From Thermosediminibacter litoriperuensis (GTDB lineage: Bacteria > Bacillota > Thermosediminibacteria > Thermosediminibacterales > Thermosediminibacteraceae), in contig NZ_VNHO01000002.1 of assembly GCF_008124715.1 (NCBI RefSeq), forward strand, positions 1 through 64,000: a stretch of DNA of 64,000 bases, written 5' to 3'. The notes beneath the pieces were generated by a model. It ran no database searches, was not told the DNA's origin, and was given only the letters and a program-made list of their open reading frames with translations. The translations under genes were made by a program, and so were the position numbers. Of this stretch, positions 15,269 through 46,087 are shown piece by piece (the stretch's first letter is position 1; each line of letters opens with the position of its first letter).

Positions 15269-15814
15269 GTGCTCGCAGCCATCATTAATGCCCGGCTATC
15301 GTTGAAAGGGCCGGCTTGTCATTATAAAAGCCGGGTGAATCTGAATACACTTCTTTTACCTTACGTATACAATTATCTAAAATTAGATTCCAGAGGATAT
15401 GGAATTATATTGTCTTTTAAGGGATCATCAATGCTTATTTCATCATTATTTATGCCAGTTCTAATAAATAAATTCAGTGAAATCACGGTTTTTAAATTAG
15501 GAGTAACAGGCCTCGGGTTAGTCCTTCTGTTGTTCCCCCTAAATGAGATATTTGCACTTGCGGCAATTCTACAGTCCCTGAACGGAATATTTAATTTAAT
15601 GTATTCAGTCACAAGAACAACGATAATTCAAAAGCATGGAGAAAATCAGTATCTAGGCAGAGTTTTCAGTACAAATTCGATGTTCATTAACATCGCTTCA
15701 GTCATAAGTTTAAGCACCTCTGGTTTTTTGGCCGAGATCACAAGCGTAAGATTTGTGTTAATTGTCGCAGGCTTAATAGTATTACTGGCGGGACCCTATC
15801 TATATTTAATATAA
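15269..15814 (+). pseudogene. MFS transporter remnant (C-terminal half)
   Basis: The 181-codon frame encodes about six membrane helices that look like the second half of a major facilitator. Convincing similarity starts at about codon 23 (VNLNTLLLPYV). No N-terminal half with the first six helices lies upstream, so this is probably a decayed gene. It is A+T-richer than its neighbours. A 13-nt identity with the 3' end of the arsR gene (13890-13902) lies just in front (15255-15267), suggesting that a second regulator-transporter pair was lost here. Confidence 0.65.
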
Positions 15815-16015: not shown

Positions 16016-16309
16016 GTGAAGCCGGTGAAGACGGGAATGGAAACGGAGGATTTGCTTGTATTACTGAGATTGATGAATTTTGGTATGGGGATTTTAACTG
16101 TATTATTTTCTTTCAGGCTTTTTTTTAAAAACAAAAGCCTGTTTCCACTCTTTATAGCAGCAGCCATCATAACCGCGGGTCCTGTGGAAGACTTGATCAT
16201 GAGCCGGGTGAGTCCGGAACAGCGACCGGTGATAGACCAGCTCACGAGCCTGGGCTTTCTGGTGTTTCTGTTTCTGGCTTTATTGAGCTCCCACTTAAAA
16301 GCCGGGTGA
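16016..16309 (+). CDS. Small membrane protein of unknown function
   Basis: 97 residues with three hydrophobic helices (about residues 22-38, 43-60 and 76-93). GTG start at 16016 after GGAAGGAGGGG. I do not recognise the family. It has no close neighbours on its strand. The 3' end overlaps a 13-bp inverted repeat that probably terminates a transcript coming from the opposite side. Confidence 0.6.
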   Translation: MKPVKTGMETEDLLVLLRLMNFGMGILTVLFSFRLFFKNKSLFPLFIAAAIITAGPVEDLIMSRVSPEQRPVIDQLTSLGFLVFLFLALLSSHLKAG

Positions 16310-16327
16310 ACTTAAAGTTCACCCGGC
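16296..16327 (-). terminator. Hairpin terminator of a leftward transcript
   Basis: Perfect 13-bp inverted repeat GCCGGGTGAACTT/AAGTTCACCCGGC (16301-16313, 16315-16327). Only the minus strand continues into a T-run (TTTTAAG); the plus strand continues into CGAAAGG. It therefore suits a transcript moving leftward. Confidence 0.6.
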
Positions 16328-16416
16328 CGAAAGGTATTGAAGTTAAAACCTACGTAAAGACTCTTTCCAGGTATGATCATACCCACTTCCGCCTTTAAAA
16401 CACGAATACGAAACAA
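16312..16416 (-). CDS. Candidate small ORF behind an ECF-type promoter
   Basis: A 34-codon frame starting with TTG at 16416 behind TAGGGGTG, or 22 codons from the ATG at 16380. It ends at 16312 inside the terminator hairpin. It begins about 50 nt after the predicted start of a transcript from the ECF-type promoter at 16466-16494. The product is basic then Gly/Phe/Asn-rich and not recognised. The transcript could equally be a non-coding RNA of about 160 nt. Confidence 0.3.
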   Translation of the reverse strand: MFRIRVLKAEVGMIIPGKSLYVGFNFNTFRPGEL

Positions 16417-16465: not shown

Positions 16466-16494
16466 ATAGTCGTTTTATCACCCCAAAAAGTTCC
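16466..16494 (-). promoter_or_regulatory. ECF sigma-type promoter, leftward copy
   Basis: On the minus strand: GGAAC, 17 nt, CGACTAT. The hexamers and 13 of 17 spacer bases are identical to the copies at 38310 and 40923. It points left toward a short region ending in a hairpin at 16301-16327. Confidence 0.65.
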
Positions 16495-38309: not shown

Positions 38310-38338
38310 GGAACTTTTTGGCAGCATAAAACGACTAT
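38310..38338 (+). promoter_or_regulatory. ECF sigma-type promoter
   Basis: GGAAC (38310-38314), 17-nt spacer starting with TTTTTGG, CGACTAT (38332-38338). The 29-nt element is identical to the one at 40923-40951. It lies 77 nt before an unknown membrane-anchored protein gene. GGAAC-N17-CGA is the usual layout for ECF sigma factors. Confidence 0.68.
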
Positions 38339-38415
38339 TTCAACGACCGCGACCACGGATGAGTTTTACGTACTTAGCTTAAGGATGGGAAAACTTTTTC
38401 CATCCTTAAGGTAAT

Positions 38416-39444
38416 ATGAAGGGGTTGATTGAAATTTTTAAATTTAAAGGGCCTATATTTAAAGCAATAATTTTATTAGTATTATTAACTCTAGCAGTTG
38501 GGTCTGTTCTAATTCTCAAAGACGCAACTCCTCAAAAATTGATATTATTTTTGCGCGACAAGACAGTCGAAATTGAAGATAGCGTCGATCTTGCGAATAT
38601 TATGAAAATCATTTCGACCATGGAAAAAAAGCCATCGGCAGAATTTCATGAATACGCAGACAAAGGAATTTTTATTTATAATAAGATTAAAAAGCAAAGA
38701 TTTATGTTAGAAGATGGATTCGTGCACTTGGGAGGAGAAACGTATTACGGTATTTATGAAGCCTCCTGCATAAGGGACATTTTGAATAAGTATATCTACG
38801 ATAAAAAATTCGTAGTAGAAAAAATCCAGAATTCATCCCGCATTTTATTAAAGGCTGAAGATTTGAAGCAGTATGTTGAACTTAGTGATTCACAGAGAAG
38901 TGAACTGGTTAAATGTCTTGAATCAGCTTTTATTGAGTATGAAGAAATAGTTGGGCCTAAATGGGGCGATTATCCGGATTATGTTATTGAAGCTTATACA
39001 CAAAACCCTGACAATAAAAAAATAGTGTTGTGTATTTTAAATCCGGAAATGATGCTTGAAACTAATGGTGGGTTTAATGTATATGTTACCGATAGCCACA
39101 TCTGGGATTTTGTGAGCTCTATTATTCCTGCGACCGAGTCCGAAGAAAATGATGTTAGATATCTTTTTAAAGCCGACAAAGTGTTTGTAATAGAATCTGA
39201 AAAGTATACTAAAGATTACAGTTATGCGAAAACAATTTTTATAAGGTCTTTGTACGATGCGGAACCATCTAAAAAAGAAGAGATTATTAATAATAACGAG
39301 AACGAGAAGCTGATTTTGAAATTTACAATAAATGGTGATTCCAAGATTGTGGAAGTCTATGAAAACGGCTACATTTACAACGGTATTTGTTATAAAAAAA
39401 CCGGAATTCTCGAGCAAATGAAAAGAATAATGAGCGTTCCTTAA
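38416..39444 (+). CDS. Membrane-anchored protein of unknown function
   Basis: 342 residues. One N-terminal membrane helix (about 15-35) is followed by an extracytoplasmic part rich in Lys, Glu, Ile and Asn. No family recognised. The gene is strikingly A+T-rich compared with wecB, which suggests acquisition by transfer. It is the apparent target of the ECF-type promoter at 38310, hence possibly part of an envelope stress response. The ATG at 38416 has an AAGGTAATATGAAGGGG context; a TTG soon after is an alternative start. Confidence 0.7.
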   Translation: MKGLIEIFKFKGPIFKAIILLVLLTLAVGSVLILKDATPQKLILFLRDKTVEIEDSVDLANIMKIISTMEKKPSAEFHEYADKGIFIYNKIKKQRFMLEDGFVHLGGETYYGIYEASCIRDILNKYIYDKKFVVEKIQNSSRILLKAEDLKQYVELSDSQRSELVKCLESAFIEYEEIVGPKWGDYPDYVIEAYTQNPDNKKIVLCILNPEMMLETNGGFNVYVTDSHIWDFVSSIIPATESEENDVRYLFKADKVFVIESEKYTKDYSYAKTIFIRSLYDAEPSKKEEIINNNENEKLILKFTINGDSKIVEVYENGYIYNGICYKKTGILEQMKRIMSVP

Positions 39445-39511
39445 TAACATAGTATTACAAAAATACATTCTCAAATGGTGTTTTTAGAGCGGCTCATGAA
39501 GGTGAGAGCGT

Positions 39512-39546
39512 ACCAATATGAGCACCCCGATGGTGCTCATATTGGT
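39512..39546. repeat. 15-bp perfect inverted repeat between convergent genes
   Basis: ACCAATATGAGCACC (39512-39526) and GGTGCTCATATTGGT (39532-39546) with a 5-nt loop. It lies between the ends of the rightward unknown gene and the leftward anti-sigma gene. No T-run on either side, so a bidirectional, T-poor terminator or a mobile-element relic are both possible. Confidence 0.6.
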
Positions 39547-39596
39547 GTTAAAAACTCCGTCAAAGATAAAAAGGTAACTATGGTTTGATATTACCC

Positions 39597-40328
39597 TTAG
39601 GTTCTCATGCTTTCGGCTACCCGAATTATATCCTCTTCGCTCAATTTTCCCGTAATTATAAAATAAGTCGAGCCGTTTCCATATAAAAGATGCCTTAATC
39701 CGCTTTTCTTGAAATGGATGAGCGTTGCTTCGGATGATCCATTTATGCTGAGGGGTTTAACTTCTGCATCGTTTGTCCGGAAATTGTGAGAAAAGGCTGT
39801 TTCCCGCGCTATAGAAAATTGTTCTATTCTAAGTTCCTCGCCTTCTGTTCCTTTTCTATAAATCAACGTAACAGAATCCTTTCCCCCGCCGGAAATCTTC
39901 GCACCGTGGAAACTATATCCTTCGGGCAGATATTCAGGGACCGAGATTTGAAAGTGCACATTTTTCTGCGCTTCATAAATGGGAATAAAAACATCTTTTA
40001 GCGTCCCGTAATTTTCCCCGCCGGTTCTTCCCGAAATAGTCATTACATTATTCCAGTATTTCCTGACAACGTTGAAAAACTTCGAATCGGCCGTGACCTC
40101 TTTGCCGGCGATTCCTGCATACACCCCCATAAAAAATACCACCAGGACAAAAGCCGCATTGACCATTCTTTTCGCGATATTCGTTTGTTTATGCTTTTTG
40201 GCCTCTAGTTCTTTTTTTATACTGACCCAGGTTTCATCTTCGATATGTTTCGGAACGGGGATGTCTTCAGCGCATCCCTTTACTTTTTTGGACAGGTAAA
40301 GGTCGAAAGCATCCTTATCTTTTTTCAT
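39597..40328 (-). CDS. Probable membrane anti-sigma factor with DUF4367-like C-terminus
   Basis: 243 residues. The cytoplasmic N-terminal 50 residues are charged; one membrane helix follows (about 55-73). The extracytoplasmic part has VPEYLPEGYSFHGAKISGG, the YLPEGY-type hallmark of DUF4367 domains, and an end (YGNGSTYFIITGKLSEEDIIRVAESM) typical of that domain. Its start overlaps the sigma gene by 14 nt, the standard layout of an ECF sigma/anti-sigma pair. Confidence 0.8.
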   Translation of the reverse strand: MKKDKDAFDLYLSKKVKGCAEDIPVPKHIEDETWVSIKKELEAKKHKQTNIAKRMVNAAFVLVVFFMGVYAGIAGKEVTADSKFFNVVRKYWNNVMTISGRTGGENYGTLKDVFIPIYEAQKNVHFQISVPEYLPEGYSFHGAKISGGGKDSVTLIYRKGTEGEELRIEQFSIARETAFSHNFRTNDAEVKPLSINGSSEATLIHFKKSGLRHLLYGNGSTYFIITGKLSEEDIIRVAESMRT

Positions 40329-40857
40329 CGTATCCTACCCCTTCCTTCTGCTCCGCCAGGATATTCCTTAAAAACAGCCTGGCGCGGAAAAGCCTGCTTT
40401 TGACAGTTCCCACGGGCACTCCGAGATACTTCGATATTTCACCTTCGGAAAGGTTGTTGTAGTACTTCAATACTACGATCTGCCTGTGAATCGGGTTCAG
40501 CTACTTTTAAGCTTTATCCATATCTATTCTATTTTCAGCATCCGTAATCGAATCGAACGAAACTTCCAGGGCGGTATTCATGGAGACTATCTTATCCATA
40601 AAGACCTCATCCATGAGTACATACTTTGCTTTCTTCCGGATAAGGTCTACGGCTTTTTTGGTAGCGATAGCGCTAACCAGCGCCGGGAACCGAGGAAGGT
40701 CCACAGGGCCTTTTTTCAATATTTCGTAGGCAATTAAAAAAGCCTCCTGAATGGAATCCTGGGCAATGTTCTCGTCTTGGGCGACCAGGTACGCCGTCCT
40801 GTAAACTTTTGAAAAATACATACGGTAGAGACTCTCGAAAAGATCAAAATCTTCCAT
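40315..40857 (-). pseudogene. ECF sigma factor gene interrupted by two in-frame stops
   Basis: Read through, the frame encodes a normal-length ECF sigma factor (about 180 codons). Region 2 is FESLYRMYFSKVYRTAYLVAQ followed by DSIQEAFLIAY. Region 4 is LNPIHRQIVVLKYYNNLSE followed by EISKYLGVPVGTVKSR. Between the two regions the codons GCT-TAA-AAG-TAG-CTG place two stops (40501-40509) without any shift of frame. The ATG at 40857 follows AAAGGCGG. Either the sigma factor is inactive, or the halves act separately as in SigO-RsoA; the region 4 part has no ribosome-binding site, which argues for inactivation. Confidence 0.78.
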
Positions 40858-40922
40858 TGTTAAGATACCGCCTTTATTGCAAAACTTTTTCATATCTATT
40901 ATTAAAAAATTTTTAACTTCAA

Positions 40923-40951
40923 GGAACTTTTTGGCAGCATAAAACGACTAT
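40923..40951 (+). promoter_or_regulatory. ECF sigma-type promoter, divergent from the sigma gene
   Basis: GGAAC-N17-CGACTAT, identical over 29 nt to 38310-38338. It starts 66 nt upstream of the sigma gene start but points away from it, toward the interrupted gene at 41081. Confidence 0.68.
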
Positions 40952-41080: not shown

Positions 41081-41530
41081 ATGAGAGTCAACACAAATTA
41101 TTATCAAACAAAGCCATATATCAGTACAAATATGAAATCTAATGTACGTGATAATACGAGACCATATATCTTGATGCAGGAAAATTCAAAGATGGAGCAC
41201 AAAACGGAGTATTCTTCAAATATTTGGGAATAACTTGCTAAAGTATATAACATTAGAAATGCTTCTTTCGATGAGCTTTGTGATATATCCTTAAAACTGT
41301 ATGAGGCAGGAGAGATATCTCCAGCAGATCATGCGATCCTAACTTTTGATCCAAGTAAATCCCCGCAAAAAATAAGGCCCAATATATTCTTAACAAAAGC
41401 TGACCCAGACGGCAAGAGGGATTGGATAGCAGAATACGAAGCAAGGGCGAACATGGATTTGAAGATTGGAAATATGCTCGGTTATAAAAATAATTGCCGA
41501 ATACTTGATATTTTGAGACGCCTTCGGTAA
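41081..41530 (+). pseudogene. Unknown gene with one in-frame stop
   Basis: An ATG at 41081 behind AGGAGTGAAGG opens a frame that meets TAA at 41231-41233 and then continues open, same frame, to 41530, for about 149 codons in total. The second part (FDELCDISLKLYEAGEISPADHAIL, then SPQKIRPN and DWIAEYEARA) resembles small uncharacterised proteins found in several Firmicutes, so the two parts were one gene. It lies behind the ECF-type promoter at 40923. Confidence 0.6.
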
Positions 41531-41648
41531 GAAGCAAAAATCCTTTAATAAAATGACCATTAGGCAAGATACAATGACGCTTACGTTGTAGCCTTTTTAC
41601 AGCCTCCACCCGCCCGGTTATACAAAGGCAAATGAAGGAGAGACCGAA

Positions 41649-42197
41649 ATGAAAAAATATACTTTAACGTTGATATCAATGTTATTGGTAGTAAGCATAT
41701 TTTTAAATTTTGTATTTGTGGCTCAATTGCTGGATATTAAAAAAAAGGAAGAGGAAAGACTATTATCCAACGTATTTACCTGCGGAGAGTATTTTGGTAT
41801 TTTCGGCGACAATTTACAAAAATACATTAAAAATCGGGATGAAAAGTATAGAATGGAGATGATATGGATTTACCTGGTATTAAAGGCTTTCAGATATAAT
41901 TTAGCATCTACAAATACAGTTTTTCTCAAGGATTTGGACGAATCCATAACTCCAATAAGAAAACTTATTAGAATTATAGAAGATATATCATTAAAACTTA
42001 ATAGAGATTCAATTAATACCGAAGACGGCAAGTCGAGAGACTTTTGGGAATCCTTTGCCAGAGATGTTCTAAAAGTGGCTGAATTGTTGACTGAAAGGAG
42101 AGAGAAGGAAGACCGGGTTAAAGCAAACCTGCCAGAAGCAGGACGGGTTATCGAAAATTTGTCTGAAAAATACGATTCCTACTTAAAAGGTAAATAG
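41649..42197 (+). CDS. Small membrane-anchored protein of unknown function
   Basis: 182 residues: one N-terminal hydrophobic helix (about 5-27) followed by a highly charged, mostly helical domain (Lys/Glu/Arg-rich). No family recognised. ATG after AATGAAGGAGAG. A+T-rich, like the genes before it, and perhaps part of the same ECF-controlled group. Confidence 0.68.
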   Translation: MKKYTLTLISMLLVVSIFLNFVFVAQLLDIKKKEEERLLSNVFTCGEYFGIFGDNLQKYIKNRDEKYRMEMIWIYLVLKAFRYNLASTNTVFLKDLDESITPIRKLIRIIEDISLKLNRDSINTEDGKSRDFWESFARDVLKVAELLTERREKEDRVKANLPEAGRVIENLSEKYDSYLKGK

Positions 42198-42697: not shown

Positions 42698-42798
42698 AGC
42701 CAGCCTTTAAACTGGTCCTGTGAGGCTAGTAAGGCGAAGGGGTTTAACATAAAGATGAAGGAAAGCCTTTCTCCGCCTGACGGGGAAGGGCTTTTTTG
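42698..42798 (+). promoter_or_regulatory. PyrR-binding attenuator leader
   Basis: The stem-loop AGCCAGCCTTTAAACTGG-TCCTGTGAGGCTAG contains the PyrR recognition core TCCNGTGAGGCT. It is followed by a 13-bp terminator hairpin (42763-42775/42781-42793) and six T. PyrR with UMP is known to stabilise the anti-antiterminator and favour termination. Here the leader controls a uracil permease. Confidence 0.88.
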
Positions 42799-42808
42799 AT
42801 AGAGAAAA

Positions 42809-44199: not shown

Positions 44200-44907
44200 A
44201 TGTCGCATCCTTCTATAAACGAAAGGGTCATGATGATAAAAAGCAACAAGGATGAGATAAGCCATTTAATTGAGGAATACAGGCCTTTCATTGCTTCGGT
44301 TGTGGAAAAGTACCTGGGCCGCCGGGTCGAATACGGTATCGACGACGAGCTGAGCATAGCCATGATCGCCTTTAACGAAGCCGTTCAGAGATACGATATA
44401 GAAAAAGGTAATTTTCTCACCTTTGCCAAAAACGTGATAAGAAGCCGGCTGGTCGATTACTACCGGCGGGAACGGAAAAACAGGGAAACGGTAGTGTACA
44501 TCGCGCAGAATCAGGAGTATGACGAGGAATACGAGCTGGACATCAGTATCGACGAATCCATAAAAAAACACAGGGAAGAAGAGATAAGCGAACAAAGAAG
44601 GCTGGAAATCCTCGAGATAAAGAAGGAACTGGAAAAATGGGGACTGACCTTTTCCGATGTGGCCAGGAGTTCTCCCAGACAGGAAGGCACCCGCCGGATT
44701 TATCTTCAGGTAATCGACTTCATAATGGCGTCACCGGAAATACTAGATACGATAAAGCGGAAAAAATACTTGCCGATAGATAAAATTGAAAAGGCGACAA
44801 AAATACCCCGAAAGAAGATCGAGCGAGGACGAAATTATATAATAGCAGCGGTGATTATTTTATCGGGGGATTACAGGTACATAAAAGAGTACATTAAGTG
44901 GAGGTAA
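44200..44907 (+). CDS. sigI: RNA polymerase sigma factor SigI
   Basis: 235 residues. A sigma-70 region 2 (YRPFIASVVEKYLGR, DELSIAMIAFNEAVQRYDIEKGNFLTFA) is joined to the SigI-specific C-terminal domain (GLTFSDVARSSPRQEGTR, IDKIEKATKIPRKKIERGRNYIIA) instead of a standard region 4. In Bacillus and Clostridium SigI responds to heat or polysaccharides and is held by RsgI. The rsgI gene follows after 4 nt. Confidence 0.94.
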   Translation: MSHPSINERVMMIKSNKDEISHLIEEYRPFIASVVEKYLGRRVEYGIDDELSIAMIAFNEAVQRYDIEKGNFLTFAKNVIRSRLVDYYRRERKNRETVVYIAQNQEYDEEYELDISIDESIKKHREEEISEQRRLEILEIKKELEKWGLTFSDVARSSPRQEGTRRIYLQVIDFIMASPEILDTIKRKKYLPIDKIEKATKIPRKKIERGRNYIIAAVIILSGDYRYIKEYIKWR

Positions 44908-44911
44908 AAAG

Positions 44912-46087
44912 GTGAAGGCCGTAATTGTCGACGTCGAGGGAGAATACATCATAGTCGTCAACCAAAGGGGCGATTTTAAAAAAATATACAATATGTATAA
45001 AGGCCGGCAGATCGGTGATGAAATAGATATTCCCGAGATCACCACCAATTACACCGTATTCCGGAGAATAGCGTCTCTAGCCGCGGTATTTATGATAACT
45101 GTTGTTATGGCGGGATACGGAATCGCTTCGTTTTTCCGCCCGGTGACCTACGTGACAATGGATGTGAATCCCAGTGTGGAGATGTCACTGAACCGGTTCA
45201 ACCGCGTGATAGATGTTGAAGGTCTTAATGACGACGGCGCCCGCCTTGTGGGAGACCGGACTTCATTCAGAACCCTGCCTCCGGAGAGGGTCGTCAGGAT
45301 GCTGCTTTTCCGGGCTAGAGAGCAGAACCTCCTCGGGCCGGATTCGGTTGTGATGTTTACCATATCTAACGTGCACGACAAAAAAATGCCGGAACTCGAA
45401 AAAAAGTTAGAGGAGACCGCACGGCAGGAACTGAAGGGTGACGGCGGTATTTCCATACAGCGCAATGGTGCGGATGAAGTAAAAGTACTGGTTCAGGAAG
45501 CCCCCATAAAAAAGCACCAGGAAGCCAGAAGGATGGGGATATCCCAGGGCAAGCTGCTGCTTTATGAAAAGCTGAAGAAAGAAAGTCCCGCTTTAGACGT
45601 GGAACGCGTGAAAAAGATGCGCGTCAGAGAAATGCTTGAAGAACTTAAAGCTAAAACCGGGAAGGATAGAATAGACGGCGACAGGAGGCCGGGTCCGAAA
45701 ACCCCCAGTATACCACCGAAAGAAAAGGCCGAAAAAGAAAAGCCGGCGAAAGACGGATCACCCGGGGAAATCAAAGATGTACCGGCAAATGAAAAGGAAC
45801 GGGATAAAGAAGACCGCAGAGAGCACCGGGGCAATCCGTCCGGTTTAAAAGGCGGGGACGACAGGGACGCAAAGCACTTCGACAGCACGAGGGGCGTGAG
45901 TTCACCGGCCAGAGGAGATAAAAAAGGAGAAAAACCCTTCAGGAACCCGCGGTACAGGACTTCGGATTCATCGGTAAAGGACGGGGGAAAGGATGTCCCC
46001 GCCAGTACCCCGAAGAACGTTGATTATGGGAAGAAGGATCCGCCAGCCGGCAAAAACACGAAACCGCCTGCCACACGAGGGAATTAA
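44912..46087 (+). CDS. rsgI: Anti-sigma-I factor RsgI
   Basis: 391 residues. The N-terminal RsgI cytoplasmic domain (KAVIVDVEGEYIIVVNQRGDF) binds SigI. One membrane helix lies at about 50-72. The extracytoplasmic part begins with VTMDVNPSVEMSLNRFNRVIDVEGLN, the conserved RsgI segment where self-cleavage is known in homologues. The C-terminal 150 residues are low-complexity, rich in Lys, Pro, Asp and Gly. There is no carbohydrate-binding module as in Clostridium thermocellum. GTG start at 44912. Confidence 0.92.
   Translation: MKAVIVDVEGEYIIVVNQRGDFKKIYNMYKGRQIGDEIDIPEITTNYTVFRRIASLAAVFMITVVMAGYGIASFFRPVTYVTMDVNPSVEMSLNRFNRVIDVEGLNDDGARLVGDRTSFRTLPPERVVRMLLFRAREQNLLGPDSVVMFTISNVHDKKMPELEKKLEETARQELKGDGGISIQRNGADEVKVLVQEAPIKKHQEARRMGISQGKLLLYEKLKKESPALDVERVKKMRVREMLEELKAKTGKDRIDGDRRPGPKTPSIPPKEKAEKEKPAKDGSPGEIKDVPANEKERDKEDRREHRGNPSGLKGGDDRDAKHFDSTRGVSSPARGDKKGEKPFRNPRYRTSDSSVKDGGKDVPASTPKNVDYGKKDPPAGKNTKPPATRGN

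Follow-up and report, generated by a model that had tools for sequence, protein, structure and literature searches.

Organization of the locus

The first 64,000 nucleotides of contig NZ_VNHO01000002.1 of Thermosediminibacter litoriperuensis (RefSeq assembly GCF_008124715.1), a stretch that is here termed the window, encode an ECF sigma factor and a DUF4367 anti-sigma factor side by side and contain three copies (A, B and C) of a short element that resembles an ECF promoter. The features considered here are as follows.

16298-16332, minus strand: likely terminator, ~150 nt beyond element C: a GC-rich hairpin with T residues behind it, conserved between T. litoriperuensis and T. oceani
16466-16494, minus strand: element C, candidate ECF promoter core; T. 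oceani has an orthologous copy, and no conserved ORF follows
38310-38338, plus strand: element A, candidate ECF promoter core GGAAC-TTTTTGGCAGCATAAAA-CGACTAT (profile E 1.5e-13)
38378-38411, plus strand: strong hairpin in the predicted 5' leader behind element A (z = -4.6)
38416-39444, plus strand: intact gene for a 342-aa protein with an N-terminal membrane anchor, behind element A
39597-40328, minus strand: intact ORF (243 aa) for the DUF4367 anti-sigma factor, which has a hydrophobic segment
40330-40857, minus strand: gene of the ECF sigma factor; TAA and TAG in the reading frame (DKA*K*LNP) interrupt it between regions 2 and 4
40899-40917, plus strand: A/T tract upstream of element B, putative UP element, conserved in the family (alignment)
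40923-40951, plus strand: element B, candidate ECF promoter core that diverges from the sigma gene (E 1e-18, the best profile score in this genome)
41081-41533, plus strand: gene with one in-frame TAA at codon 51, behind element B
41649-42197, plus strand: ORF for a 182-aa membrane-anchored protein of no known family, possible second gene behind element B

The hairpin behind element A, a near-perfect stem of 15 bp, occupies the leader between the predicted transcription start and the 342-aa coding sequence; it ends a few nucleotides before the start codon and covers AAGG, the likely ribosome-binding site. An Rfam search of the leaders, which included this hairpin, recovered no RNA element. Over their C-terminal parts, the 342-aa protein and an M56/BlaR1-type protein of a related genome (G002) share 26% identity. 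The gene for the 342-aa protein is the sole intact candidate target behind the three cores in T. litoriperuensis. The ~150-nt region from element C to the terminator-like hairpin shared with T. oceani is not conserved between the two genomes and has no shared coding content; the hairpin also serves the convergent gene 16016-16309.

An initial annotation of this DNA had placed a membrane-anchored protein gene, an interrupted gene next to the sigma locus and a short leftward region behind the three copies. The first agrees with the intact frame that follows element A. The second does carry an in-frame stop, but was rejected as a conserved target because its ortholog in T. oceani, which is intact, is located elsewhere and has no element before it. 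As for the third, element C does lie on the minus strand, but no conserved product follows it.

Two further observations concern other parts of the window. A PyrR-binding-site RNA at 42700-42800, before a uracil permease gene, reaches 52.6 of the Rfam gathering score of 54 and is ordinary. The C-terminal half of an MFS transporter at 15269-15814 lacks the N-terminal part and is a gene remnant by appearance.

Conservation of the element

Exact matches to GGAAC-N17-CGACTAT number three across the 2,343,706 bases of the T. litoriperuensis genome, against about 0.3 expected by chance from base composition. All three are intergenic and inside the window; the reversed control pattern has none genome-wide. 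Elements A and B are identical at 29/29 nucleotides, and C departs from them at four spacer positions alone (CAGC to GGTG). The positions and strands of the copies, and the spacer ends that they share (TTTTTGG at the front, ATAAAA at the end), are as first annotated. With part of the spacer fixed and up to three mismatches allowed, additional matches were no commoner than in the control, which leaves three copies as the full set for T. litoriperuensis.

A profile built from the sequences of 20 copies was searched over 22 genomes of the order and returned 25 elements at E <= 4.5e-10, in 7/9 genomes of the Thermosediminibacteraceae, the next matches following only at 1e-3. In 24 aligned copies, GGGAAC, the TTTTG directly behind it, TAAAA and CGA(C)TAT are fixed or nearly so; within the spacer this applies to positions +6 to +10 and +17 to +21, while +11 to +16 vary. 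GGAAC-N17-CGA is present in 23 of these copies, and the remaining one has GGAAA. Conservation extends to an A6T4 tract ~10-20 nt upstream and to ATTATAGAGGG downstream, giving a conserved stretch of ~60 bp; element A has neither the usual A6T4 tract nor the ATTATAGAGG downstream block. ECF target promoters combine AAC in the -35 box with CGT/CGA in the -10 box at a spacing of 16-17, and the element agrees with this; as far as sequence can tell, its layout is ECF promoter anatomy with an UP-like tract.

A second, conserved sub-type of the element, GGAACCTTTTGGCAATCTAAAACGAATAT, occurs at L068:3080, L069:2791 and L070:1895. The gene next after it encodes an intact 244-aa LytTR-type response regulator in G005 and G006, and a different protein in T. 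oceani (G001).

The sigma/anti-sigma pair

Region 2 and region 4 are the only promoter-binding domains of the sigma factor, as is typical of ECF proteins, although the ORF is interrupted in T. litoriperuensis. An intact homolog scores 77 bits against TIGR02937 (sigma70-ECF; cut-off 42.9), and the NCBIfam equivalog cut-offs for SigW (87 of 209 bits), SigV (71 of 190) and SigM (65 of 199) are all missed. The DUF4367 protein, the putative partner, overlaps or abuts the sigma gene in T. litoriperuensis, G002, G003 and G006. The pair had been annotated as damaged, which is true of the sigma gene but not of the anti-sigma gene.

The stops in the sigma gene of T. litoriperuensis (TAA AAG TAG) replace Leu and Gln codons of the relatives. 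Separate losses of the sigma factor are seen in T. oceani and in a related MAG. The T. oceani gene has suffered frameshifts, in-frame stops and a deletion of 10 nt, and in that of G003 a GAA codon has become TAA and a different stretch of 10 nt is deleted. G002 and G006 retain one continuous ORF. Since T. litoriperuensis shares none of the lesions of T. oceani and G003, the sigma factor was apparently lost at least three times. The broken gene has a dN/dS of 0.20-0.27 versus intact relatives, and the anti-sigma gene one of 0.15-0.19 versus G002 and G006; these ratios and the intact anti-sigma ORF indicate that the loss is recent, and they speak against taking silence of the promoters as certain.

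Thermovorax contains several near-identical sigma-promoter-target cassettes (L059, L062), and at L059:13098-13583 sigma region 2 continues in frame into the C-terminal domain of the anti-sigma factor.

Link between the element and the sigma group

In T. litoriperuensis, T. oceani, G002 and the sigma copies of G006, an element is found just upstream of the sigma gene, on the other strand and directed away from it; every intact sigma copy has such a divergent element. Autoregulation toward the sigma gene was considered and rejected for this sigma clade, in which every copy of the element points away from its sigma gene; the earlier statement that the sigma strand has no such promoter thus fits the direction of element B. 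The nearest sigma homologs from the sister family (G012, G013; 36-39% identity) carry a divergent promoter of the form TGAAAC-N17-CGAC at the equivalent position, and more distant homologs have ordinary autoregulatory GGAAC/TGAAAC-N-CGTC promoters. A tree of the sigma homologs does not firmly join the two clades with divergent promoters. In G004 and G005, elements are present and no sigma factor of this group was detected, the element-bearing contigs ending near the elements.

On the sigma strand, a TATAAT-like hexamer is conserved in the relatives, and a housekeeping-type promoter is therefore proposed for the sigma and anti-sigma genes; a sigma-70 scan found the window no richer in such promoters than shuffled sequences.

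Genes behind the element in relatives

The genes that follow the element in related genomes encode mostly proteins with signal peptides or lipoprotein signals. Among them are a 162-aa secreted protein (G002, G005, G006) and a C39-type peptidase; the same clusters encode a SurA-N protein, a PQQ propeller protein, a copper-amine-oxidase-N protein and several proteins of no known family. In four genomes of the sister family, TGAAAC-N17-CGACTATAT together with an A/T tract immediately precedes the start of the ortholog of the 162-aa protein, and in G009 and G022 homologs adjoin an intact ECF sigma gene and a gene for a DUF4367-like anti-sigma factor. The fold of the 162-aa protein is predicted with good confidence to be a beta-sandwich behind an N-terminal helix, with only weak matches in the PDB (about E 0.001). 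Behind the element in T. oceani, a target with an intact counterpart in G005 is cut down to the last ~40 codons.

The assignment of the element as an ECF-type promoter, already made in the initial annotation, and as one belonging to the adjacent sigma group finds strong support in its conservation in the family, in the divergent layout in the sister family and in its position before orthologous targets. The link between promoter type and sigma group is conserved across families at the sequence level, and the sigma factor would be expected to bind the element.

A second sigma-70-like protein (region 4; SigB/F/G-like) is encoded behind the element in G005 (L065:4597-4884), and another behind an element variant in G012 (L029), hinting at a sigma cascade.

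Interpretation

Elements A, B and C are quite probably promoters of the ECF sigma factor encoded at 40330-40857 and, that factor being broken, most likely orphans of a decaying regulon. In relatives with an intact system, the sigma and DUF4367 anti-sigma genes would be transcribed from a separate, housekeeping-type promoter; release of the sigma factor by the membrane anti-sigma factor, as we infer it, would allow RNA polymerase to start at the GGAAC-N17-CGACTAT promoters, of which one always diverges from the sigma gene and others lie close to it; secreted or membrane proteins would be made. In T. litoriperuensis, two nonsense codons would have inactivated the sigma factor, leaving the three promoters probably orphaned and presumably silent today. 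A working regulon in this genome is at odds with the broken sigma gene beside an intact anti-sigma gene, with the gene after B being no conserved target, and with the lack of a conserved product after C.

Alternatively, A, B and C could still be active and recognised by the one other ECF sigma factor kept in this genome, a SigX-like protein encoded on contig 8. That gene is intact, the best matches of its product are the PRK09639 SigX models, and the three elements keep perfect -35 and -10 boxes. SigX of Bacillus subtilis uses a promoter of the AAC-N17-CGAC type, which counts in favour of such rewiring. Yet the contig-8 gene has no such element upstream, the tree makes its product only distant kin of the adjacent sigma factor, and perfect cores could equally reflect recent sigma loss; we regard recognition by this factor as unlikely. 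It is about as unlikely that, after the death of their own sigma factor, the orphan promoters came under the control of another ECF factor in this genome, the regulon thus outliving its sigma factor. If true, repeated sigma loss with retention of the promoters would amount to regulatory rewiring and not to decay.

It is very unlikely that the 29-nt segment was copied by recent duplication or as a small mobile repeat and has no promoter function, as the initial annotation had allowed. The identity of A and B includes the spacer, and copied promoter-sigma cassettes do exist in related genomes (Thermovorax contigs 24 and 25), but that duplication leaves A, B and C unexplained. The 100-position flanks of A and B are identical at 28 and 32 positions, which is background level; the conserved spacer blocks hold family-wide; and copy C agrees with its T. 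oceani ortholog at 41/48 positions, the flanks at about 40%. The conserved stretch ends where the end of a promoter would be expected. No terminal inverted repeats were found at the element, and collections of viral, phage and plasmid sequences contain no copies. Duplication and mobility were rejected on flank identity, on the footprint of copy C and on this absence from the mobile collections.

Even less credible is a sigma factor that is still alive, either in the form of separate region 2 and region 4 polypeptides, in the manner of SigO-RsoA, or by read-through. The stops do sit in the linker between the two regions, but there are two of them within three codons, and region 4 is preceded by no evident ribosome-binding site and no ATG, GTG or TTG, the first codon after the stops being CTG. 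The gene is moreover continuous in G002 and G006 and broken by unrelated lesions in T. oceani and G003, and a functional split was rejected on the missing start and ribosome-binding site and on the breaks elsewhere in other genomes. The faintest chance of all is left to the element being an operator of another DNA-binding regulator with a fortuitous likeness to ECF promoters: conservation does reach beyond a minimal promoter, but the order and spacing of UP tract, -35, N17, -10 and start region fit an ECF promoter, the elements are mostly upstream of genes and directed toward them, and they are linked to an ECF sigma/anti-sigma pair in several families.

In the preferred reading, an undescribed ECF group of thermophilic Clostridia gains a highly specific promoter, which is conserved over ~60 bp and stands clear of the background in 22 genomes, and a list of likely targets, most of them secreted or envelope proteins. 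The genomes line up as a natural series, with working systems in Thermovorax and G002 and broken ones in T. litoriperuensis, T. oceani and G003, in which the decay or rewiring of a regulon can be watched, and the conserved spacer and divergent layout provide a clean test of the role of the spacer in ECF specificity.

Comparison with known systems

The system is an ordinary ECF regulon, most likely in decay, that is not described in the literature searched, which yielded no papers on DUF4367 in connection with sigma factors and none on ECF regulons after sigma loss. It is unusual in its conserved spacer, its divergent, non-autoregulatory layout and the repeated loss of its sigma factor. Positive autoregulation of the sigma gene is common but not obligatory, being found in about 55% of ECFs with predicted regulons (PMC8103513).

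The window itself holds another alternative sigma factor with a membrane anti-sigma partner, an intact pair of the SigI-RsgI type (44200-46087) close to the broken ECF pair. Its anti-sigma protein differs in belonging to the RsgI_N, RsgI_M family, and no evidence links it to the element.

Tt-RpoE1 and Tt-TolB of Thermoanaerobacter tengcongensis likewise represent an ECF sigma factor with an adjacent cognate anti-sigma gene in a thermophilic relative among the Clostridia (PMC3397946). The -35 box described for Tt-RpoE1, tGTTAC (PMC3397946), sets it apart from the present element with its GGAAC. The autoregulated ECF loci of Tepidanaerobacteraceae (G010, G011, G019, G020) have homologous sigma factors (34-37%) and a GGAAC/TGAAAC -35 box, but their promoters read into the sigma gene and have a CGTC -10 box.

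The closest general likeness is to the SigW/SigX/SigM/SigV-type ECF factors (group 4) of Bacillota, which also combine a sigma factor of regions 2 and 4 with an adjacent anti-sigma factor that has a hydrophobic segment, a -35 box with AAC, a -10 box CGAC, a T-tract between the boxes and envelope or secreted targets. The T-tract is credited with helping to set selectivity among SigM, SigW, SigX and SigV (Gaballa et al. 2018, as cited in PMC6767563). The present system departs from this type in that its promoter is divergent from the sigma gene and not autoregulatory, its anti-sigma factor has a DUF4367 output domain, and the spacer and flanks of its promoter are unusually conserved.
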